Virus record (IMG/VR): IMGVR_UViG_3300006805_000074
Coordinates: 1 to 36,669 of that record
DNA: 36,669 nt
Source: a virus
Direction: 5' to 3' (one strand)
The notes beneath the pieces were generated by a model that made no database searches, was not told where the DNA came from, and saw nothing but the letters and a program-made list of their open reading frames with translations. Shown piece by piece: positions 1,147 through 31,982 of the stretch. Positions within the stretch are counted from its first letter, which is position 1. Each line of letters starts with the position of its first letter. The position numbers were made by a program, and so were the translations under genes.

Positions 1147-1743
1147 ATTAGTACAACTGTTAAAAGGTTTCTGATTGTAGCTGCCTTAGCTATGACCATA
1201 ATCCTTGGGATTGCTACTGTTCAAGCCAGAACTGCTCACGCAGCGGCACAAGCGCAATTAAGCGCCGAACAGCAAGAGATCACTAAAACCAAAACTCAGC
1301 TGGATTCTACTGTATTAGAAAAACAGCAGCTTGAAGCACAGCTAAAAGCAGAAGCTGAGAAGTCACAATCACTTGAAAAGGAAAACGCTGATTTAAAAGC
1401 GAAGAAGCAAGCTAGATTAGAGGCTACCAAATTAGCAACTAGAAACGCTCAAATACGAGTAGTTGCCGTTAATGGTAGTTGTTCTGACTGGCTTGCGAGT
1501 GCAGGTGTGACAGATATCGCTAACGCTATGGAGTTAATCCGTAGGGAAAGTGGATGTAACCCAAATGCCGTAAACCCTTCGTCGGGTGCATGTGGTGTTG
1601 CACAAGAGTTGCCATGTGGTAAATCTGGATGTAGTTTAGGCGATGGCGCCTGCCAGGTTGCATGGATGAAACGTTACGTGGAAGCACGTTATGGTTCTTG
1701 GGCTGGAGCAATAGCTCACCACAATTTGAAAAACTGGTACTAA
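1147..1743 (+). CDS. Exported lysozyme/transglycosylase-like protein with coiled coil, ATT start
   Basis: Starting at ATT 1147 gives a 198-residue protein. Residues 1-32 form a standard signal peptide: KR at 6-7, a hydrophobic core and an AHA cleavage site. Residues 35-100 are a charged coiled coil. The C-terminus (about 108-198) has the lytic-transglycosylase pattern: probable catalytic Glu in RRESGCNP (about residue 134), then GACGVAQ and a final AHHNLKNWY, with several Cys that could form disulfides. This Cys-rich style resembles domains I associate with Saccharibacteria. The first ATG (1192) would cut the signal peptide in half. AAAAGG at 1135-1140 lies six bases before the ATT, and no ATG, GTG or TTG occurs in frame upstream. 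Being outside the late lysis cassette, it may serve something other than final lysis. Confidence 0.8.
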   Translation: MSTTVKRFLIVAALAMTIILGIATVQARTAHAAAQAQLSAEQQEITKTKTQLDSTVLEKQQLEAQLKAEAEKSQSLEKENADLKAKKQARLEATKLATRNAQIRVVAVNGSCSDWLASAGVTDIANAMELIRRESGCNPNAVNPSSGACGVAQELPCGKSGCSLGDGACQVAWMKRYVEARYGSWAGAIAHHNLKNWY

Positions 1744-2375
1744 GTACCGACAGGAGAGGCTGTAACTTTAGGATGGGCCTCCGTGTAGACTAGCTGGTTG
1801 AGGTCTGCCGTATTTAATCACCGACAGATTATACCCCCTATTACCCCTTCGGGGGACTTGGGTGAGCCAGGTTAGAGCGTGCAGACCTCTCTTTAGTTAG
1901 GACGGCGTTACGTGGGTTCAATTCCCACCTCATCCACCACACAGATACATAGTAGCATTGCATATACCCCTGTTACCTTGGTCGGCTAGACCTCATACAC
2001 TGTGTATCTCTGTGGCCTTACAATAATCGCAGAAAAGCCTGTAAAAAACGTCCGGGATAGGCTGTCTAGCCGGTAGCTGTTTTATTGTAGGGTCATTTAT
2101 GACAGGCATTGTTACGTTTATAAACCTGACCTCGCACCCTAGTAACAATGGAGTGCTTGTGGTTATCTATTGGGCGGCGGCCCATTGGAGTCCTGAAACG
2201 GATTTCCTCTATCGGCCCGTAGTTTTTAGGCTACCCTGCGGATAGGTAAGATTCACGGACAGTACAGATAAAAGCTGTCTACTCTTTGCCCCCTGAGTAT
2301 AATCGGGGGCGTTAATGTCTATGCACCTGCTGGCAACAGCAACTGGCCTTGCCAATGGATGTATGGACAAATTGA
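1744..2375 (+). ncRNA. Large structured RNA candidate, class unknown
   Basis: About 630 bases without a credible gene but with many strong nested pairings: 1937-1949 with 2003-2015 (12 of 13 paired), 2016-2026 with 2082-2092 (11 bp), 2107-2115 with 2142-2150 (9 bp perfect), 2163-2171 with 2241-2249 (9 bp with two G-U), a hairpin at 2288-2310, and 2316-2325 with 2360-2369 (10 bp) enclosing a GCTG-GCAA-CAGC tetraloop hairpin at 2329-2340. The 5' part carries a tRNA-like 3' end. Size, setting and the tRNA-like part recall ornate phage RNAs such as GOLLD or ROOL, but I cannot match a consensus. It is probably co-transcribed from the 943 promoter with the lysozyme gene. The 48-codon ORF at 2099-2245 inside it is judged accidental. 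Confidence 0.7.
1771..1939 (+). other. tRNA-like element within the structured RNA
   Basis: Positions 1912-1928 form a textbook T arm (GTGGG, loop TTCAATT, CCCAC), followed by CTCATCC and an ACCA end at 1936-1939. The 3' acceptor strand can pair with GGATGGG at 1771-1777 or with GGGTGAG at 1860-1866, each with a single G-U. With the first partner, a perfect 9-bp helix (1800-1808 with 1881-1889) takes the place of the anticodon arm, as in tmRNA. I find no tmRNA tag or GGATTCGAC motif and no good anticodon arm, so it is neither an ordinary tRNA nor a standard tmRNA. Confidence 0.55.
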
Positions 2376-2393: not shown

Positions 2394-2498
2394 ATGGACG
2401 AAGACGAGATCGAACTACTCAACATGTCGTTTGAAGAGATGAATCGAATCGCTAATGGAGAACCAGATGAAGAACCAAGCGAAGATACTTCTCTATGA
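2394..2498 (+). CDS. Hypothetical 34-residue acidic protein
   Basis: ATG 2394 follows GGAGA by about nine bases. The product (MDEDEIELLNMSFEEMN...) is strongly acidic, and its C-terminal half overlaps the start of the exonuclease gene in another frame. It may be a small accessory protein or exist mainly to couple translation of the exonuclease. No family is recognised. Confidence 0.45.
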   Translation: MDEDEIELLNMSFEEMNRIANGEPDEEPSEDTSL

Positions 2499-3219
2499 CC
2501 TTGAGGTGTCGAGAGACATTGTAGAAGGTTATGGAAACAAGTGGGAATTTAAGGTAGTCAAAACAATCAGGCATCAAGAACTTATGTGTTTTGCATACAA
2601 GTGGCTTGGTCAACGCAAGGTACATTACGTATCACGACATGACTTCAAAACTTATGGCGAGTTCGTAGAGGCACTATGGCACATCCTCGATGAGGCTGAT
2701 ATAGCTATAGCACACAATGCAAATAAATTCGACAATAAAATGGCGAATAGGTACTTTATACAGTCTGGCTTTGGACCAGTATCAACGTATAAAAGTATAG
2801 ATACACTACAGGTAGCACGAAGTACCTTCAAGTTTCAAAGCAATAGTCTACAAGACCTCTGTGAATATCTTGGACTTGGCAGCAAGCGTAAAATTACGTA
2901 TGCAGACCTAGAAGAAGATTTCATGAGCGAGAAACCAAATCCTAAGACTGAGAGACTTATGAGAGAGTATAACATACAAGATGTTGTACTGTTAGAGAAA
3001 CTTTACATGACACTAAGACCTTACATAAAGAATCACCCTAATATGGGGGATATCTTGCAGGGTATTGGTTTGTGTCCTAAGTGTGGTAGTCCAGACCTCC
3101 GTGTATACGGTACGGCTCCAAGGGCAAACGGCAGAGTGCAAACCTATATATGTAATGTATGTGGCGGACGGTCTAATGATGCAACAATCAAGGGTCGTGG
3201 CAGGGTAGTAAATGCATAG
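2467..3219 (+). CDS. DEDDy 3'-5' exonuclease with C-terminal zinc ribbon
   Basis: A 250-residue RNase H-fold exonuclease of the DnaQ/polymerase-proofreading type. ExoI is LLYDLEVS near the N-terminus, ExoII is AHNANKFDNKM around residue 84, and ExoIII is YNIQD around 171, with the Tyr that marks the DEDDy subtype. Residues about 200-240 add a zinc ribbon (CPKCGSPDL, then CNVCGG), likely for DNA binding. No polymerase domain follows, so it is a stand-alone exonuclease, perhaps for recombination, end processing or host DNA breakdown. ATG 2467 is preferred over 2455 because GGAG lies six bases before it. Confidence 0.8.
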   Translation: MKNQAKILLYDLEVSRDIVEGYGNKWEFKVVKTIRHQELMCFAYKWLGQRKVHYVSRHDFKTYGEFVEALWHILDEADIAIAHNANKFDNKMANRYFIQSGFGPVSTYKSIDTLQVARSTFKFQSNSLQDLCEYLGLGSKRKITYADLEEDFMSEKPNPKTERLMREYNIQDVVLLEKLYMTLRPYIKNHPNMGDILQGIGLCPKCGSPDLRVYGTAPRANGRVQTYICNVCGGRSNDATIKGRGRVVNA

Positions 3220-4487: not shown

Positions 4488-4830
4488 GTTTGTAACTAAA
4501 GATTCAGGCAAACGACAAAAGTTCGAGTCCGGTATGGTACGAGACACGCAGGATGGTAAGCCGAGGTACGACCTAATACCAGTTGGTCCTCTCAGGAGAC
4601 TAGCAGAACTATACATGCGTGGTGCTGCCAAATATGACGACAACAACTGGATGAAGGGGCAACCCTACTCCAGGACTTATGCATCCTTATTCAGGCACAT
4701 GATTGCATGGCGCGAGGGTGATAAATCAGAAGATCACTTGGCTGCTGTAGCGTGGAACGCATTCACACTAATGCACTACGAAGATAACAAGCCAGAGCTA
4801 GATGACATTATAGACATCAAAAAATCATAA
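4480..4830 (+). CDS. DUF5664-type dATP/dGTP diphosphohydrolase-like protein
   Basis: The 116-residue protein matches the phage all-alpha NTP pyrophosphohydrolase-like family often annotated as dATP/dGTP diphosphohydrolase: an N-terminal GKPRYDLIPVGPL, then a helix with RGAAKYDDNNW, and a C-terminal SEDHLAAVAWNAFTLMHYE whose acidic and His residues would hold the metal. It probably adjusts deoxynucleotide pools during replication. It starts with AAAGG at usable spacing. No partner for base-modified DNA synthesis (such as PurZ) is visible here. Confidence 0.7.
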   Translation: MSKFVTKDSGKRQKFESGMVRDTQDGKPRYDLIPVGPLRRLAELYMRGAAKYDDNNWMKGQPYSRTYASLFRHMIAWREGDKSEDHLAAVAWNAFTLMHYEDNKPELDDIIDIKKS

Positions 4831-4849: not shown

Positions 4850-5017
4850 ATGAATTCAAACCAGATTATCAACGACGAAATGACACTAGAAGAGAAACTT
4901 GCCGCAATTGATGCCGCTATGAAAACTGGAGCTAAGGAATTCAACGTTAAGAATGGTCGCCCAACAGATGCACCAGTAGACCCATCAGATCTGCTAATGT
5001 GTGAAGGTTGCCAGTAG
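4850..5017 (+). CDS. Hypothetical 55-residue protein ending in CEGC
   Basis: ATG 4850 follows AAGGGA by seven bases. The N-terminal half is an acidic helix (EMTLEEKLAAIDAAMKTG); the C-terminus ends MCEGCQ, with one CxxC pair. It is too short for most gene callers but has good codon use and spacing. The real start of the next gene (5040) lies just after its stop. Function unknown. Confidence 0.6.
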   Translation: MNSNQIINDEMTLEEKLAAIDAAMKTGAKEFNVKNGRPTDAPVDPSDLLMCEGCQ

Positions 5018-5039
5018 TTTACATAAAGTAAAGGGTTAC

Positions 5040-5771: not shown

Positions 5772-5986
5772 TGGTAGAGTATAACGAAGTAGAGGAAGTG
5801 AAGGCTTTCCGAGTACAAGCAGATGCATTGATGGTACGAGCTAAAGAACTGGCAGAACGTTTTGGTGCAAGCCGAGCGTATAGCCTTATGTTCACACATG
5901 CTGAACTAGCAAAGATGTACGGCGGCAAACGACTAGAAGAAATAGGAACTGAGTTTCCTGCAGAATTAGCAGATAGGAGTAAGTAA
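5771..5986 (+). CDS. Hypothetical helical protein
   Basis: A 71-residue, mostly alpha-helical product (VEEVKAFRVQADALMVRAKELAERFG). GGAG six bases before ATG 5771 supports the start. It overlaps both neighbours by one base, so it belongs to a translationally coupled chain. No domain is recognised. Confidence 0.65.
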   Translation: MVEYNEVEEVKAFRVQADALMVRAKELAERFGASRAYSLMFTHAELAKMYGGKRLEEIGTEFPAELADRSK

Positions 5987-6489: not shown

Positions 6490-6994
6490 TCTTGGTGGAG
6501 ACCTACGCAAGTATGCGGAAGAATTAATTGCTAAGAAGTTTGACATCCCGGAGGTGATGGAGCGCCCAGCTTCCTCTCCCTCCACGGATACGATCGAAGC
6601 AAGAGATTATAGACGAACTGACACGGTTAGACCACCAAGCTATGCGGATGAACGATATGCTGGCTATAAGCGGGACGTTGCTCAAGGATTTAGACGTGAA
6701 ACCTGGAGCGATTATACAGTTACCTTCGACTGTACGGCTGAATCCCATATCATATCGGCCATCAGAGAGATGGACTACCATGGGATACGGTCGCAAAATA
6801 GACGAATTATGGTCGGTAAAGCTGGGTTTGCAGGCCTAAGGCGTATAAGAGACTTGATAGTATATGACGTTCAAAGGTCAAGGCCAGACATGATAGCAAT
6901 AGAGATTGGTAATATCTTTGGCGTACCTATATACTATGACTACCACATGGATAAAGACGCCTACCCCTCTGGGAGACTAGAAGGCCAGATGTAA
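6443..6994 (+). CDS. Hypothetical protein, last gene of the left early operon
   Basis: A 183-residue ORF. AAGGAG six bases before ATG 6443 supports the start inside the previous gene. The middle (about 45-105) is rich in Arg and Tyr, while the end (DMIAIEIGNIFGVPIYYDYH) looks like a folded core. An overlapping +1-frame ORF at 6642-6839 is unusually protein-like, so this stretch may hide a second product or a frame change. No family is recognised. Transcription ends 13 bases later at a strong terminator. Confidence 0.6.
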   Translation: MSYSLPKATKTQKLSSLGGDLRKYAEELIAKKFDIPEVMERPASSPSTDTIEARDYRRTDTVRPPSYADERYAGYKRDVAQGFRRETWSDYTVTFDCTAESHIISAIREMDYHGIRSQNRRIMVGKAGFAGLRRIRDLIVYDVQRSRPDMIAIEIGNIFGVPIYYDYHMDKDAYPSGRLEGQM

Positions 6995-7006
6995 GAGATA
7001 AAAGTA

Positions 7007-7040
7007 AAACCCCCATCGTAATGATGAGGGTTTCTTTTTT
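7007..7040. terminator. Bidirectional rho-independent terminator
   Basis: AAACCCCCATC (7007-7017) pairs with GATGAGGGTTT (7023-7033), ten of eleven, around a 5-base loop. It is followed by six T on the + strand and preceded by A-rich sequence that gives T-rich tracts on the - strand. It lies between the convergent early (+) and late (-) operons and would end both. Confidence 0.9.
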
Positions 7041-7049
7041 ATGTCTTAA

Positions 7050-7298: not shown

Positions 7299-8173
7299 TA
7301 TTTCCTACTTTCTAAGTATTTCTTAATAAGCTCTACTAGTTTTTTGAATAGGGCCTTGATTGTGTTTGTTATTGTTGTTGGTTTTTCTGGCTCTACAGGT
7401 ATACTTGGGTCAGTAGGAATTGTAGGCTCAGTTGGAATCTCTGGTACTTCTGGTACCTCGGGCACTACTGGTGGTTGTTCTGGTTCTGGTTTTGGACCAT
7501 ACTTATCAACAATAGCGGCTGTAACATCTTGCCCGTTAAGGATAATGTTACCACCGCCGTACTGCCTGTAACCATTGTATGCATTCTGCTCAATAGAGTA
7601 AGCCGCACGTTGTACGCCATCAATGAACAACCTGTATAAGTTGTCTGGTTGTGGAGTAGGTGGAGGCGTAGGAATGTTATCAGTAACAGTCCCCCAGTCA
7701 CCTGAACCGTTCTTGGTTTTAGCAAGAGCTTCTAGGCGAGCTAGGTCGTAGTTACCAGGACATGCAGTTGCTACAAACTGACGGTGAGGAACAAGTGGCT
7801 TGTATCCATATGCATCCCAGATTTGTGCAATAACTTCCGCAACTACATCGTAGTCTTCGTCACGACAGCGTGGGTCACACTCAATCGAGATAGTGTATGG
7901 GTTAGCAGAGTTAGTTGCCCAGCTTGCATCAGCAAAGTTAACAAGCTGCGCTACTCTACGACCAGTACCGGTAGCTACTAAGTGGGCACTGGCACCACGG
8001 TTAGGGTTACATAGTGTTGCAATCACTCCCTCGTAAGAAGGATTGGTATTTGGGTCACCCCACCAGTGTATTGCAATTGCATCAATAGTGCGAGGTCGTC
8101 CCCATACCTTAGGTGCATCTGCAGCAACTGTAAAGTTCGGACTGTTGTACTGTGTTTCATATTTATATGACAT
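7298..8173 (-). CDS. N-acetylmuramoyl-L-alanine amidase (Amidase_2 type), endolysin
   Basis: The N-terminal domain (about 1-150) is a zinc amidase of the T7-lysozyme/PGRP fold: His36 in IAIHWWGDP, His130 in VPHRQF and Cys138 in ACPG, eight residues apart as in T7 lysozyme. It cleaves the bond between muramic acid and L-Ala. A Pro-rich linker leads to a small domain (about 175-225), then a second Pro/Glu/Val linker of PEVPE-type repeats, then a cationic amphipathic C-terminal helix (KALFKKLVELIKKYL) that could bind or disrupt membrane. There is no signal peptide, so a holin is needed for access. Confidence 0.9.
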   Translation of the reverse strand: MSYKYETQYNSPNFTVAADAPKVWGRPRTIDAIAIHWWGDPNTNPSYEGVIATLCNPNRGASAHLVATGTGRRVAQLVNFADASWATNSANPYTISIECDPRCRDEDYDVVAEVIAQIWDAYGYKPLVPHRQFVATACPGNYDLARLEALAKTKNGSGDWGTVTDNIPTPPPTPQPDNLYRLFIDGVQRAAYSIEQNAYNGYRQYGGGNIILNGQDVTAAIVDKYGPKPEPEQPPVVPEVPEVPEIPTEPTIPTDPSIPVEPEKPTTITNTIKALFKKLVELIKKYLESRK

Positions 8174-8551
8174 TTAGTTCTCCTTTGTAGCTTTAACTAC
8201 TTGATATTCTTCTCTCATAGCTTCAAGCATAGCCCGTAGCTCTTGATTCTCCTGACGAGATAGTTTGAGTTGACCCTGAGTTTCCTCAAGAGCGCTCTCT
8301 AGTCTCTGTACAGTAAGTCTTGTGGCAGTAAGCTCTTCCTCAAGGGCGTTTACTACCCTAACCTTGCGGTCATCTTCTGCATCTTTTTGTTTGATTAACC
8401 TTTCGTATCCATCGAACATTTGTTCCATACGATCTTTAGGTTGTTTTTTACTTTTTGTTTTCTGAACTTTTTTGGCAGCAACATTAACAATGTAAGCTAT
8501 CAGTATACCGCTAACGGCAGATATAAGGGAGAGTATCACTGGCTCATTCAT
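8174..8551 (-). CDS. Membrane-anchored coiled-coil protein, lysis cassette (spanin-like or holin accessory)
   Basis: 125 residues: one N-terminal membrane helix (about 5-27), a very basic stretch (KKVQKTKSKKQ), then a long coiled coil (about 45-120). It ends immediately before the amidase gene. An anchored coiled coil in a lysis cassette resembles an i-spanin in shape, but no lipoprotein partner is seen, and an outer-membrane spanin would make no sense in a single-membrane host. A phage-associated anchor or regulator is equally possible. Confidence 0.55.
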   Translation of the reverse strand: MNEPVILSLISAVSGILIAYIVNVAAKKVQKTKSKKQPKDRMEQMFDGYERLIKQKDAEDDRKVRVVNALEEELTATRLTVQRLESALEETQGQLKLSRQENQELRAMLEAMREEYQVVKATKEN

Positions 8552-28797: not shown

Positions 28798-28934
28798 TGC
28801 ACCGTAACGGCAACACTTGCGCTATGTACATAAGATGTAACCACCGTAAATATAAAGTATTACACACTATAGTTGATTATATTGCTATACTATCCTTTAT
28901 ACTCATACCATCTTTTATATATTCTCTTATATAG
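28797..28934 (+). CDS. Small putative membrane peptide
   Basis: 45 residues, coupled to the previous gene by TAATG. The first half is basic with two Cys (MHRNGNTCAMYIRCNHRKYK), and the second half is one hydrophobic helix (YIAILSFILIPSFIYSLI). It could be an inner-membrane micro-protein acting on the host. The evidence is coupling, composition and length only. Confidence 0.45.
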   Translation: MHRNGNTCAMYIRCNHRKYKVLHTIVDYIAILSFILIPSFIYSLI

Positions 28935-28988
28935 TACTTATACATATATGGTGTAATAGCCAATACAGGCACATTGCGCGGATTCTGT

Positions 28989-29015
28989 AACCTCTGATAA
29001 TACAGGGGTTATTTT
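28989..29015 (+). terminator. Probable rho-independent terminator
   Basis: AACCTCTG (28989-28996) pairs with CAGGGGTT (29003-29010) over eight bases with one G-U, loop ATAATA, followed by ATTTTA. The T-tract is short, so it may be leaky. It would end the transcript of the two small genes at 28612-28934. Confidence 0.55.
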
Positions 29016-29473
29016 ATACCATTTATAACTCATATGCTTATTGTTAGCATAACCGCCTGTAACGCCGTGTAATGACGTATAAGCGACGTTGCTCTATACC
29101 TGACTATATACTCATCTTATACATATATTCTTAGTGTCGCACAATATACTACAGGCACTATCGCCGACTTATCCACAAGCACTATAACATAATATTCGAT
29201 AATTACTAGACTATGCACAAGCACAATGCCGTGATAATATAGATACATAACCGCAATAGGGGTTATAAGATAAGCAAAGCATAAGCACATTATATCGCCG
29301 TCGTGGTCATATTGTACCAGACGCACATAATGCAATAAATGCACCGCTTTGTCAAGTACAATTCACTTTTACAACGTGGCGTTACACCGTCTTATTAAGC
29401 ATGACCAATTACCGTAAGGAATGGTTGCAACGGTGCAAACGTAAATAATACAACACAATATAAGATAAATGTA
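29016..29473. other. AT-rich gene-free block with a DnaA box; candidate replication origin
   Basis: No supportable gene. TTATCCACA at 29169-29177 is an exact consensus DnaA box, and CTATGCACA at 29211-29219 differs by one base from the TTATNCACA consensus. The block is AT-rich, has several short inverted repeats (for example ATAACC/GGTTAT near 29247-29266) and lies at the divergent transcription point of the genome. An origin is possible but not shown. Confidence 0.4.
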
Positions 29474-29502
29474 TTGACACAAAGCACAAAGTGATATATA
29501 CT
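29474..29502 (+). promoter_or_regulatory. Rightward sigma70-type promoter
   Basis: Consensus TTGACA at 29474-29479, 17-base spacer, TATACT at 29497-29502. It would drive the micro-ORF/amidoligase operon after a long leader. Confidence 0.75.
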
Positions 29503-29890
29503 GGTAACAGATAAGAACAACAGAGCATAAAAACTCTGGTCGGTGATTATCAATTTACATACATATAATACAATTTAACTGTTTACGGTGGTACTTGAAA
29601 TAATAGTATCAATAGTGAGCAAGCGTCCCCTTACAGGGGGTTATGATACACATAATCGAGCTTGTAGCAGTTGCATTATTGCAGTTTCATAGTATAATAT
29701 GGTTCGGGCTTGGTTGTCAATAGCATGACATAAAATAAGCGAATAGTCTATAACCCGCATGAAGCGATTGCATGGGGGAGAGTCGGGAGAACTGTAATTT
29801 TCCACTGACAAGATTGGTAGCAATAACCGAGCAACCTCGCAAGGGGTATACTATACATAATACATAATATAACAAATTAGGGAGAGAACT
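29503..29890 (+). other. Long untranslated leader with hairpins and an internal promoter
   Basis: 388 bases without a gene. Hairpins: CAGAG/CTCTG at 29521-29538, CCCC/GGGG at 29627-29639, and CGAG-CAAC-CTCG near 29838. A second promoter candidate lies inside: TTGCAT at 29671-29676 and consensus TATAAT at 29693-29698, 16 bases apart. It may be a regulatory leader or a small RNA. I cannot assign it to a known riboswitch. Confidence 0.45.
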
Positions 29891-29983
29891 ATGACTTTAC
29901 AAGAACGATGGATTAAAAAGATGACAGAGCTGGGCATTTTTGACAGCATAGTCGAAACATTTGATAGCGTGGGAGAGGTATAA
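29891..29983 (+). CDS. Hypothetical 30-residue protein
   Basis: ATG 29891 follows GGGAGAG at good spacing. The product (MTLQERWIKKMTELG...) is a single amphipathic helix with an acidic end. It is linked to the next ORF by a TAATG overlap. It could be a real micro-protein or a translated leader. Confidence 0.45.
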   Translation: MTLQERWIKKMTELGIFDSIVETFDSVGEV

Positions 29984-30111
29984 TGAAATATACTCTCATC
30001 AGTGGTGACATCAAGCTCACATACAACTCTTTTGCAAGGGCTACGAGTAAACTAGTGGCACTTGGTAGCGGTAAACTGTTCTATGGGAGAGTTCTCGTAG
30101 GAGAGCTGTAA
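29983..30111 (+). CDS. Hypothetical 42-residue protein
   Basis: Starts within the previous stop (TAATG) with GGGAGAGG eight bases upstream. The product (MKYTLISGDIKLTYNS...) alternates strands and has a basic middle. The ending (YGRVLVGEL) resembles in flavour the 55-residue product at 30512. No family is recognised. Confidence 0.5.
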   Translation: MKYTLISGDIKLTYNSFARATSKLVALGSGKLFYGRVLVGEL

Positions 30112-30395
30112 GGTAAATTAACGGTATATTATGTATAGTGTTGCCCTTGTTAGGGTATAGTTCAGACTACTACGACAGAGGCAAGAGTTATGACTTGTTA
30201 ATCTGTTGATAAATCCCACTCATCGGAGGGTGTACACGGTCTGGGCTAGAGTTGTAAGCGTGATGTATCAGAGGCACAAATGTGTGTGTAGTATGGTATG
30301 GTAGCGTGAAACGGCAAAAAATATGGGAGAGGTGTATTCCAACCACATCTCTCTCATGTCCATATTAACAGGTTGGGGAGAAGGGTAGTAATATA
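30112..30395 (+). other. Gene-free interval with a candidate mRNA switch
   Basis: No supportable ORF. An 11-bp hairpin (30325-30335 with 30345-30355, two G-U) competes with CCAACC (30339-30344) pairing to GGTTGG (30371-30376), just before the purine-rich ribosome site of the ORF at 30396. A smaller hairpin CCCT/AGGG occurs near 30152-30163. Confidence 0.4.
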
Positions 30396-30512
30396 ATGAA
30401 AATACCTGTCTGGAGAGAGGTATCTCTGCAAGCGTGGCAGGGACTAAGACAACACACCAAGAGAGTTGTATATATTAAAAGTAAACTACACTTTTATAAG
30501 AGAGTATCATAA
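30396..30512 (+). CDS. Hypothetical 38-residue basic protein
   Basis: ATG 30396 follows AGAAGGG by ten bases. The product (MKIPVWREVSLQAWQG...) is basic and may be one helix plus strand. Its stop overlaps the next start (TAATG). No family is recognised. Confidence 0.45.
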   Translation: MKIPVWREVSLQAWQGLRQHTKRVVYIKSKLHFYKRVS

Positions 30513-30679
30513 TGGTACTACAGATTATAGTAGACGGACGGTCGAACATATACAGAGGTGTAAACAAATTTGTATATGGAGACTACATAAGAGGCTTTGC
30601 ACTCATGGCAACATATGCTAAGAGTGGCGAAATGTATATATTAAAAGGTAAAAGCAAGAAACTTATAAGGAGTTTTTAG
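30512..30679 (+). CDS. Hypothetical 55-residue protein
   Basis: Coupled to the previous ORF by TAATG. The product (MVLQIIVDGRSNIYRG...) has two or three strand-like segments and a basic end (KGKSKKLIRSF). It directly precedes the amidoligase gene, whose AAGGAG lies within its 3' end. No family is recognised. Confidence 0.5.
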   Translation: MVLQIIVDGRSNIYRGVNKFVYGDYIRGFALMATYAKSGEMYILKGKSKKLIRSF

Positions 30680-30683
30680 TGAT

Positions 30684-31982
30684 ATGAGTGAATTAACGGC
30701 AACAGATGTGGCTATCGAGCAAATAAAGAAGGCTGGGTTTTCGCATATTAAGGTAGAGCTAGAGGCAGACCTCGGTAGGGACGGAGAGCGTGAGTGTAGC
30801 GATTGTGATGATGGCTATAGCGATTGTGATGAGTGTAATGGGGACGGTGTTCTCATGGCAGAGCGTCCAAACGGTACAGAGGTAGAAGTAGAATGTGATG
30901 AATGTTACGGCGAAGGTCGTGTAGAATGTGGCTATTGTGATGGCAGGGGTTACGACGGTGGTTACTACGACGAAGATTACTGTGAAACATTTATGCGTGA
31001 TTGGGTAGGCTCAGATGTACTGAGTAGGCTCACCTATGGTAACTTTTACGAAGATGGTAGTGTAGACAGTGAGTTTACGTTTACTGTACCTATCGAACAC
31101 TACAAAGATATTGTAGTCTGGATTGACAGCTTTAAGGCACTATCCGAGGACATTGGTAACGGATACAATACAGGTGGAGCAGGTATGCACATCTCTCTGA
31201 TACCAAAAGAGAGCAACGGTAACTATCCAAATAGACACCGTATGCCAGATGACAAGATAGAAAACTTTGCAGAACAGATGAGCAAGCTGTTACCAGCCAT
31301 GCTATTCTTCTCAAGCAATAATGAGGTAAGTCGTGGACTGAGTTATAGGACACCACAAGTGTCTCACGACGAGAAGTACAGCGCAATCTATACTCACGAC
31401 GGTACTTGTATTGAATACAGGGCTTTCGAGACCTGTTACGACGAACCAGAACGTATCTATGAACATATAGAGGTAGTAGCAAAGACCCTACAGTTCTATG
31501 TAGACCCTACTAAAACAGTAGAGACTATGGGCTTTAGATTTAACTTCTCAGATTCTTATAGCGGTCAAGAGGGGAGACAGCTTAGTCGATTCTATGACAC
31601 ACCAGAGAAAATTGCGGTATTGCGCAAACAGCTTAAATATATCAAGCCTGATGGCAAGAGCAATGCAGAGCTTATGGCACAACGTGGCGTATCTGGTATA
31701 ACAGACTTGCGTAAAAAGATAAGCAAGAGACGTAACCAATTGCGTAAGCAATACTTTAAGAGTATGGCGATGATAAAGATACAAGAAAAAACACCACTGA
31801 CGGAACGGCAAATGATTCACCTTGAAGAACTCAAACAATACTCTCGTCGCTACAGTGAGAATTTGGACGAGCAACAGATGATTGACCAAGCAAAGGGTAT
31901 CAATCGCTTGCCAGACTTAGAAACATATATTAAAAACAACCTAGGCTCAAACGAGGGTCGTGGTTATACGGCATATTGCTAG
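30684..31982 (+). CDS. Glutamine synthetase-like amidoligase with internal zinc-finger domain
   Basis: 432 residues. It carries the marks of the phage/bacterial amidoligase family (GS fold, ATP-dependent amide bond formation): VELEADL (24-30), DGSVDSE (124-130), GGAGMHIS (164-171) and IEYRAFET (243-250), which supply the metal- and ATP-binding acids, His and Arg. Between the first and second motifs lies a DnaJ-like Cys domain with four CxxC pairs (C38/41, C48/51, C71/74, C82/85) and Gly-rich CxxCxGxG units. The rest (about 310-430) is basic and helical. The class II amidotransferase follows 16 bases later, so the two probably work as ammonia or amine supplier and ligase. The substrate is unknown. 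Confidence 0.8.
   Translation: MSELTATDVAIEQIKKAGFSHIKVELEADLGRDGERECSDCDDGYSDCDECNGDGVLMAERPNGTEVEVECDECYGEGRVECGYCDGRGYDGGYYDEDYCETFMRDWVGSDVLSRLTYGNFYEDGSVDSEFTFTVPIEHYKDIVVWIDSFKALSEDIGNGYNTGGAGMHISLIPKESNGNYPNRHRMPDDKIENFAEQMSKLLPAMLFFSSNNEVSRGLSYRTPQVSHDEKYSAIYTHDGTCIEYRAFETCYDEPERIYEHIEVVAKTLQFYVDPTKTVETMGFRFNFSDSYSGQEGRQLSRFYDTPEKIAVLRKQLKYIKPDGKSNAELMAQRGVSGITDLRKKISKRRNQLRKQYFKSMAMIKIQEKTPLTERQMIHLEELKQYSRRYSENLDEQQMIDQAKGINRLPDLETYIKNNLGSNEGRGYTAYC

Follow-up and report, generated by a model that had tools for sequence, protein, structure and literature searches.

A TLD-only tmRNA in a structured RNA island of an IMG/VR phage genome and its probable role as a decoy against host ribosome rescue

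Mycobacterium phage DS6A encodes a tmRNA consisting of the tRNA-like domain (TLD) only (Mao et al. 2009, as cited in PMC4131195 and PMC11915505). As relayed in these two secondary accounts, a DS6A-like RNA strongly inhibits tmRNA in E. coli whether or not it can be charged, perhaps by titrating SmpB (PMC4131195; PMC11915505). CDS-less tmRNAs persist in some mitochondria alongside SmpB (PMC11915505), and the G-U at acceptor pair 3, the alanine determinant, is described as fully conserved in tmRNA (PMC3985003). In the literature searched a TLD-only tmRNA was named for one phage, DS6A. GOLLD and ROOL RNAs characteristically form large RNA-only oligomers. Both are phage-encoded structured RNAs occurring near tRNA islands, and GOLLD linkers sometimes contain tRNAs (PMC12286853).

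The region examined here comprises positions 1744–2375 of the virus record IMGVR_UViG_3300006805_000074, the whole 36,669-nt stretch of which is referred to as the window. This region lies in an intergenic gap (1744–2395) bordered on the left by a transglycosylase-like lysin gene (1192–1743, plus strand; PHROG 3310, E 5.9e-18) and on the right by a DNA polymerase exonuclease subunit gene (2455–3219, plus strand; PHROG 403, E 2.3e-64). A small conserved ORF (MDEDEIELLNM..., 2394–2498, plus strand) is located upstream of and overlaps the exonuclease gene, and a similar short ORF precedes the exonuclease gene in relatives L002 and L003. No ORF of at least 60 codons was present on either strand of 1744–2395 and local perfect helices exceeded chance, bearing out the first-pass annotation of the region as non-coding structured RNA. 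It had noted of ornate phage RNAs in general that they often sit by tRNA-like sequences; such sequence is present here, and syntenic relatives carry tRNA islands in the same place; in the window itself ARAGORN detected no tRNA. A further ORF-poor stretch of approximately 1.8 kb was noted at 28844–30684, with some low-energy folds (29476–29625 and 30526–30675; z −3.6).

The region had been proposed to be a divergent member of GOLLD or ROOL, a proposal that did not survive a scan with the Rfam models. GOLLD, ROOL and group I introns gave no match even at E ≤ 10 and were rejected for 1744–2375, while the tmRNA model matched at 1860–1939, below its gathering score. The region is not GOLLD or ROOL, and its single recognisable family is tmRNA, present as the TLD alone (1860–1939). 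Like GOLLD and ROOL the locus is found near phage tRNA islands in syntenic relatives, the window itself having no tRNA, but unlike them it has no sequence or model match to these families and gives no sign of a single RNA of approximately 600 nt.

The 80-nt RNA at 1860–1939 (plus strand) is a TLD-only phage tmRNA (mini-tmRNA), a known kind of which this copy is divergent, and was identified from the Rfam tmRNA model, a second model (R1), synteny and covariation. In a permissive scan the Rfam model (RF00023) matched from its first to its last position within 80 nt at 33.8 bits (E 8.7e-12), less than the gathering score of 47 and more than the other clan models; the stretch of the model that joins its two halves, corresponding to the mRNA-like domain, tag frame and pseudoknots, was deleted. 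R1 had no match in the record other than this RNA (36 bits, E 5.9e-7) and is unselective near 36 bits, since in one Peribacteria genome further matches, which are most likely tRNAs, scored 34–40 bits; false half-matches in full phage tmRNAs (tmRNA 3' halves, false 5' halves) scored 26–34 bits. The acceptor 5' strand GGGTGAG (1860–1866) forms seven of seven pairs with 1929–1935, with G3 pairing U70, and the 3' strand CTCATCC is followed by A73 and an encoded CCA (1929–1939). Between these strands lie a D-loop, AGGTTAGA (1869–1876), which has no D-stem and is identical in the mini-tmRNAs of syntenic contigs L056 and L058 (alignment A8), a short P2-like arm (1877–1908) replacing the mRNA-like domain and weakly paired in the constrained fold of this copy, and a T-arm, GTGGG-TTCAATT-CCCAC (1912–1928), with 94% identity over 33 nt to TM7 phage MG269973; all of these elements are on the plus strand. 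A 5' partner bearing G3.U70 at an allowed distance was found in 0.3–0.5% of random or shuffled sequence, and acceptor and D-loop together in ≤0.02% of random sequence.

The presence of the TLD without the mRNA-like domain, and of G3.U70, A73 and CCA in 1860–1866/1929–1939, place the RNA with the TLD-only (DS6A) type; a full tmRNA would have the mRNA-like domain with tag and pseudoknots and a score at the gathering threshold, features that 1860–1939 lacks. Set beside the published descriptions of DS6A, so far as these secondary accounts extend, it is likewise phage-encoded, has little beyond the tmRNA TLD and contains no tag reading frame, and the sizes are similar (~65-bp CDS-less forms in those papers versus 66–85 nt here). 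It is unlike DS6A in belonging to another phage group, probably with a Patescibacteria host, and in the longer, weakly paired P2 arm of the window copy. An acceptor with G3.U70, A73-CCA, the T-arm and a stemless D-loop are shared with one-piece bacterial tmRNA (RF00023), from which it differs in lacking the mRNA-like domain, tag and pseudoknots and in its length of 80 nt versus ~375–413 nt in Patescibacteria. The CDS-less mitochondrial and plastid tmRNAs are similarly reduced to the TLD, whereas the present RNA is a phage gene and would presumably meet an intact host system.

Relatives were gathered on the basis of a shared exonuclease, lysin, terminase or island motif. A mini-tmRNA was present in the lysin-exonuclease gap of nine closely syntenic contigs (L002, L003, L006, L049, L050, L051, L052, L056 and L058) and of near-copies L055, L057, L060 and L061; these RNAs are 81–84 nt long and usually located amid tRNAs, and the window copy scored the weakest of the syntenic set with R1. 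In L006 the mini-tmRNA occupies 4590–4673, a tRNA-Met ending at 4586 and a tRNA-Tyr starting at 4677, and this spacing of 3 nt from a tRNA on either side indicates a free-standing gene. The host-linked TM7 phage DolZOral124_53_65 (MG269973, L005) carries a 66-nt mini-tmRNA with a perfect 7-bp P2 hairpin at 4965–5030, in a different part of the genome. None was found in the gap of the more distant exonuclease carriers L007, L008, L009 and L011, and another such carrier, L010, has a possible mini-tmRNA in a tRNA array elsewhere on the contig. A search for further close relatives with an exonuclease DNA pattern yielded none that were new. When 11 mini-tmRNAs were aligned, all 12 acceptor and T-stem pairs formed in every sequence, eight of the 12 had changed on both sides, and the covariation score was 0.724 compared with 0.159 after shuffling. 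Such two-sided changes were the sign by which the first-pass annotation had proposed to judge the region, and for the TLD part they are present. G3.U70 was found in 11/11 sequences, and as these had been located by synteny, BLAST or another motif it was not imposed by the search.

Other RNAs were observed in these relatives. An element of ~200 nt (L049 1551–1755, L050 1547–1762, L051 1441–1632, L058 8017–8240 and L060 7793–7995 (minus)) immediately precedes the small ORF and the exonuclease gene. It is closed by a long helix that covaries and has a hairpin with a TTAATCA loop, and 15 of 52 predicted pairs had changed on both sides. A non-coding RNA of ~500 nt lies in the tRNA array (L003 3978–4472, L006 4841–5402, partly L052 1895–1985 and L008 ~5850–5925), has the motif CTAGCC..TTCG.GAAAGCTAG.CCCC and no Rfam match, and makes a stronger case than the window region for being a new ornate RNA. 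tRNAs with unusual insertions of up to ~80 nt in the anticodon loop or variable region, unlike group I introns, occur at L002 5624–5732, L049 ~1413–1552, L051 1340–1433 and L060 ~8093–8229 (minus). A second tRNA-like RNA (L049 ~861–920, L050 ~990–1052, L056 reverse complement ~6977–7042) has an acceptor and T-arm, lacks an anticodon arm and encoded CCA, and is followed by ATTTTATTCCCC(C)TCGAGGG.

A pattern search of viral sequences (GGGG, D-loop at tmRNA spacing, 26–55 nt, T-loop, TCCACCA) matched 83 stretches, 57 of them distinct. Nearly all were clear mini-tmRNAs of 72–85 nt, giving ~55 distinct examples, and two or three odd matches (e.g. the 97-nt L088 type) may be other things. As the pattern presets G3.U70 and CCA, only the 11 aligned sequences count for those features. 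In a 21-sequence family alignment all seven P2-stem pairs had changed on both sides, and whole-structure covariation was 0.674 compared with 0.170 for shuffled sequences and ≤0.124 for slid controls. The better mini-tmRNAs exceeded the gathering score of the Rfam tmRNA model, matching the full model in 72–84 nt. A nearly identical, slightly stricter pattern was matched by eight stretches in 84,980 bacterial and archaeal genomes; four are plausible mini-tmRNAs, and four were rejected as ordinary tRNA-Val with a chance GGGG. RNAs of 72 nt resembling mini-tmRNAs were seen in two Candidatus Peribacteria genome assemblies (L161 339–410 and L163 4400–4471, both minus). The cultured Stenotrophomonas phage Jojan60 carries one mini-tmRNA (69.7 bits); cultured phages matching the 3' half alone were set aside as mostly encoding full tmRNAs or tRNAs, and both matches to a pattern with the window-type D-loop were false. 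SmpB was absent from all 22 other mini-bearing phage records searched, and the control search worked. ARAGORN overlooks mini-tmRNAs or reports them as part of long tmRNAs that are false, apparent examples ending in a mini-tmRNA being L064 7371–7673 and L066 2976–3318, and consequently phage tmRNA counts based on ARAGORN may hide them. The Rfam model, for its part, counts these RNAs of ~80 nt as tmRNA.

The T-arm/acceptor pattern of the window copy was present in 13 of 380 genomes of Patescibacteria, the phylum of a Peribacteria genome, and when 12 of these loci were read 11 proved to be 3' ends of full-length tmRNAs and one a tRNA. Since the pattern mostly marks Patescibacteria tmRNA 3' ends, in a search that covered Patescibacteria alone, a CPR host for this phage is plausible. 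The description of the phage as infecting CPR bacteria, to which the likeness to a TM7 phage also lends itself, stands at the level of plausibility and no higher. The best annotated terminase relative was an unassigned phage from Manatee Spring.

The first-pass annotation had taken 1744–2375 for one large ornate RNA, either GOLLD/ROOL-like or of a new class, in which the tRNA-like end at 1939 would be a domain. Three perfect Watson-Crick helices of 9 bp with a span of ≤120 nt are present (1800–1808/1881–1889, 1983–1991/2064–2072 and 2107–2115/2142–2150), compared with a mean of 0.07 in shuffled sequences, of which 0/30 reached three, and this excess over chance is in favour of such an RNA. When G.U pairs and any span were allowed the 25 helices of 9 bp observed were at chance level (26.2 expected), and several of those originally listed are mutually exclusive, so that the claim of too many helices for chance holds for the perfect short-span class. 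The whole-region MFE z-score was −3.4 (20 shuffles) or −2.9 (60 shuffles); control 652-nt segments of the same record had a mean z of −1.18 (sd 1.51) and 4/56, one overlapping the region, reached −3.3. Folding energy, being unexceptional against these controls, was dropped as evidence for a special RNA.

Downstream of the mini-tmRNA, and on the plus strand, are hairpin A (1937–2015; arms 1937–1953 and 1999–2015, 15/17 complementary) and hairpin B (2012–2096; arms 2012–2026 and 2082–2096, 15 bp with G.U), which abut as described in the annotation and whose loops could form a kissing helix (1981–1991/2064–2074; 11 bp with G.U, 9 bp perfect). These are followed by hairpin C (2102–2160; arms 2102–2115 and 2142–2160), seen in the helix count and folds, a G+C-rich hairpin GCCCCC/GGGGGC (2288–2310) with no T-run after it, and a 3' hairpin (2316–2369; arms 2316–2325/2360–2369) enclosing, as had been noted, GCTG-GCAA-CAGC (2329–2340) within a 10-bp helix; the 150-nt segment covering it (2251–2400) had a folding z of −3.55. 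Upstream, a hairpin at 1801–1831 (plus strand) has the loop motif TTTAATCAC (1813–1821), the same 9-nt motif occurring in hairpins in the same gap of L003, L008, L049, L051 and L060. The sequence TTATACCCCCTATT at 1829–1842 is exact in L008 and partial in L007 and L047, and a second similar copy is found at 1963 of the window. No alignable nucleotide homologues of the flanks (1744–1859 and 1940–2375) were found, and a homologue search of 1744–2395 returned T-arm/acceptor matches and elsewhere isolated common words of 11–14 nt. The hairpins around the mini-tmRNA constitute a lineage-specific structured RNA island.

A long hairpin on the plus strand (1790–1808/1881–1900, spanning 1790–1900) would compete with and disrupt the TLD. 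The free fold of 1744–1939 prefers it, by 14.8 kcal/mol over the TLD-constrained fold, a penalty as extreme in one of 62 other mini-tmRNAs, and this too would suit a larger RNA, as would the covarying ~200-nt element and the ~500-nt RNA in the same gap of relatives. As an example of how such an RNA might fold, a 169-nt structure (1771–1939) has the acceptor GGATGGG/CTCATCC and the long arm 1790–1900, but it swaps G3.U70 for A3-U70 and loses the D-loop spacing. A large tag-bearing tmRNA at 1771–1939 was rejected, with no plausible tag and G3.U70 lost. Against one large RNA there is no Rfam match, the ~200-nt element of relatives was not found in the window region with covariance model R2, and the mini-tmRNA of relatives is free-standing amid tRNAs. 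We consider the single-RNA interpretation unlikely, and it is unsupported by a region that contains a separate RNA of ~80 nt. The preference for the competing fold may have arisen by chance, may reflect a switch in the precursor or may mean that in this phage the TLD belongs to a larger RNA.

We assign a probability of about 0.6 to 1860–1939 being a phage tmRNA cut down to its TLD that blocks or blunts host trans-translation. This reading starts from observed properties of the TLD-only tmRNA, namely its architecture, conservation, covariation, synteny and near-restriction to phages and the absence of SmpB from the other mini-bearing records. As the RNA has no protein-tagging part it is probably a decoy against ribosome rescue, and by analogy an alanyl-TLD/SmpB decoy is the most likely function. 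It would be cotranscribed with the rest of the island and then trimmed in the way tRNAs are; the host enzyme should charge it with alanine because it has G3.U70 and A73, and its tRNA-like shape without a D-stem leads us to expect binding to host SmpB (and EF-Tu). With no resume codon and no tag, it would either titrate SmpB away from host tmRNA or enter stalled ribosomes and take the nascent chain untagged. Either route would block or blunt trans-translation during infection, presumably to the benefit of the phage. Weighing against this reading are the poor P2 arm of the window copy, the energetically better competing fold in context, the Rfam score below gathering and an R1 score within the range of what appear to be ordinary tRNAs (34–40 bits).

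The main functional rival to a decoy is that the RNA helps, alanyl-TLD and SmpB freeing stalled ribosomes untagged so that phage proteins are spared proteolysis. We know of no step by which such an RNA would bring about release in the absence of a stop codon, and we judge this proposal rather improbable. The same anatomy would serve it and CDS-less tmRNAs occur with SmpB in some mitochondria (PMC11915505), but inhibition of tmRNA by an RNA of similar kind is described for E. coli in the secondary accounts of that work.

There is little chance that 1860–1939 is instead a degenerate ordinary tRNA of a tRNA island. Relatives have tRNA arrays at the same place, GGTTAGAGCG looks like the 3' half of a tRNA D-arm, and the R1 score alone cannot separate this RNA from tRNAs; however, ARAGORN reported no tRNA, inspection and folds gave neither a D-stem partner nor a 5-bp/7-nt anticodon arm, the tmRNA model outscored the rest of its clan, and of the 12 Patescibacteria loci read with this T-arm/acceptor 11 are tmRNA 3' ends. 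The RNA is told from a tRNA by structure and context, that is by the missing D-stem and anticodon arm, the negative ARAGORN result, the D-loop identical to that of L056 and L058, and synteny. Least probable is an origin as the remnant of an attachment site, in which a temperate phage would carry the 3' end of a host ssrA and the 5' half would match by chance: ssrA is a frequent site of phage integration and the 3' 33 nt are near-identical in TM7 phage L005, but no integrase was found among the ORFs scanned, the 5' strand and D-loop would arise by chance at ≤0.02%, and relatives change both sides of stems with the fold kept.

The TLD-only tmRNA is a kind already known, and what stands out is the unexpected breadth of mini-tmRNAs in phages. 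A wider and more tentative reading, which we hold at somewhat less than even odds, is that tagless mini-tmRNAs are widespread counter-rescue RNAs of many unrelated phages, CPR phages included, disabling or redirecting trans-translation, and that in the present phage the island may misfold the RNA as a switch. The occurrence of ~55 distinct mini-tmRNAs in uncultivated phages and of very few in bacterial genomes, together with the retention throughout a syntenic phage group of one that covaries strongly and has an alanine-identity pair, suggests that phages commonly interfere with ribosome rescue, either blocking or redirecting it.
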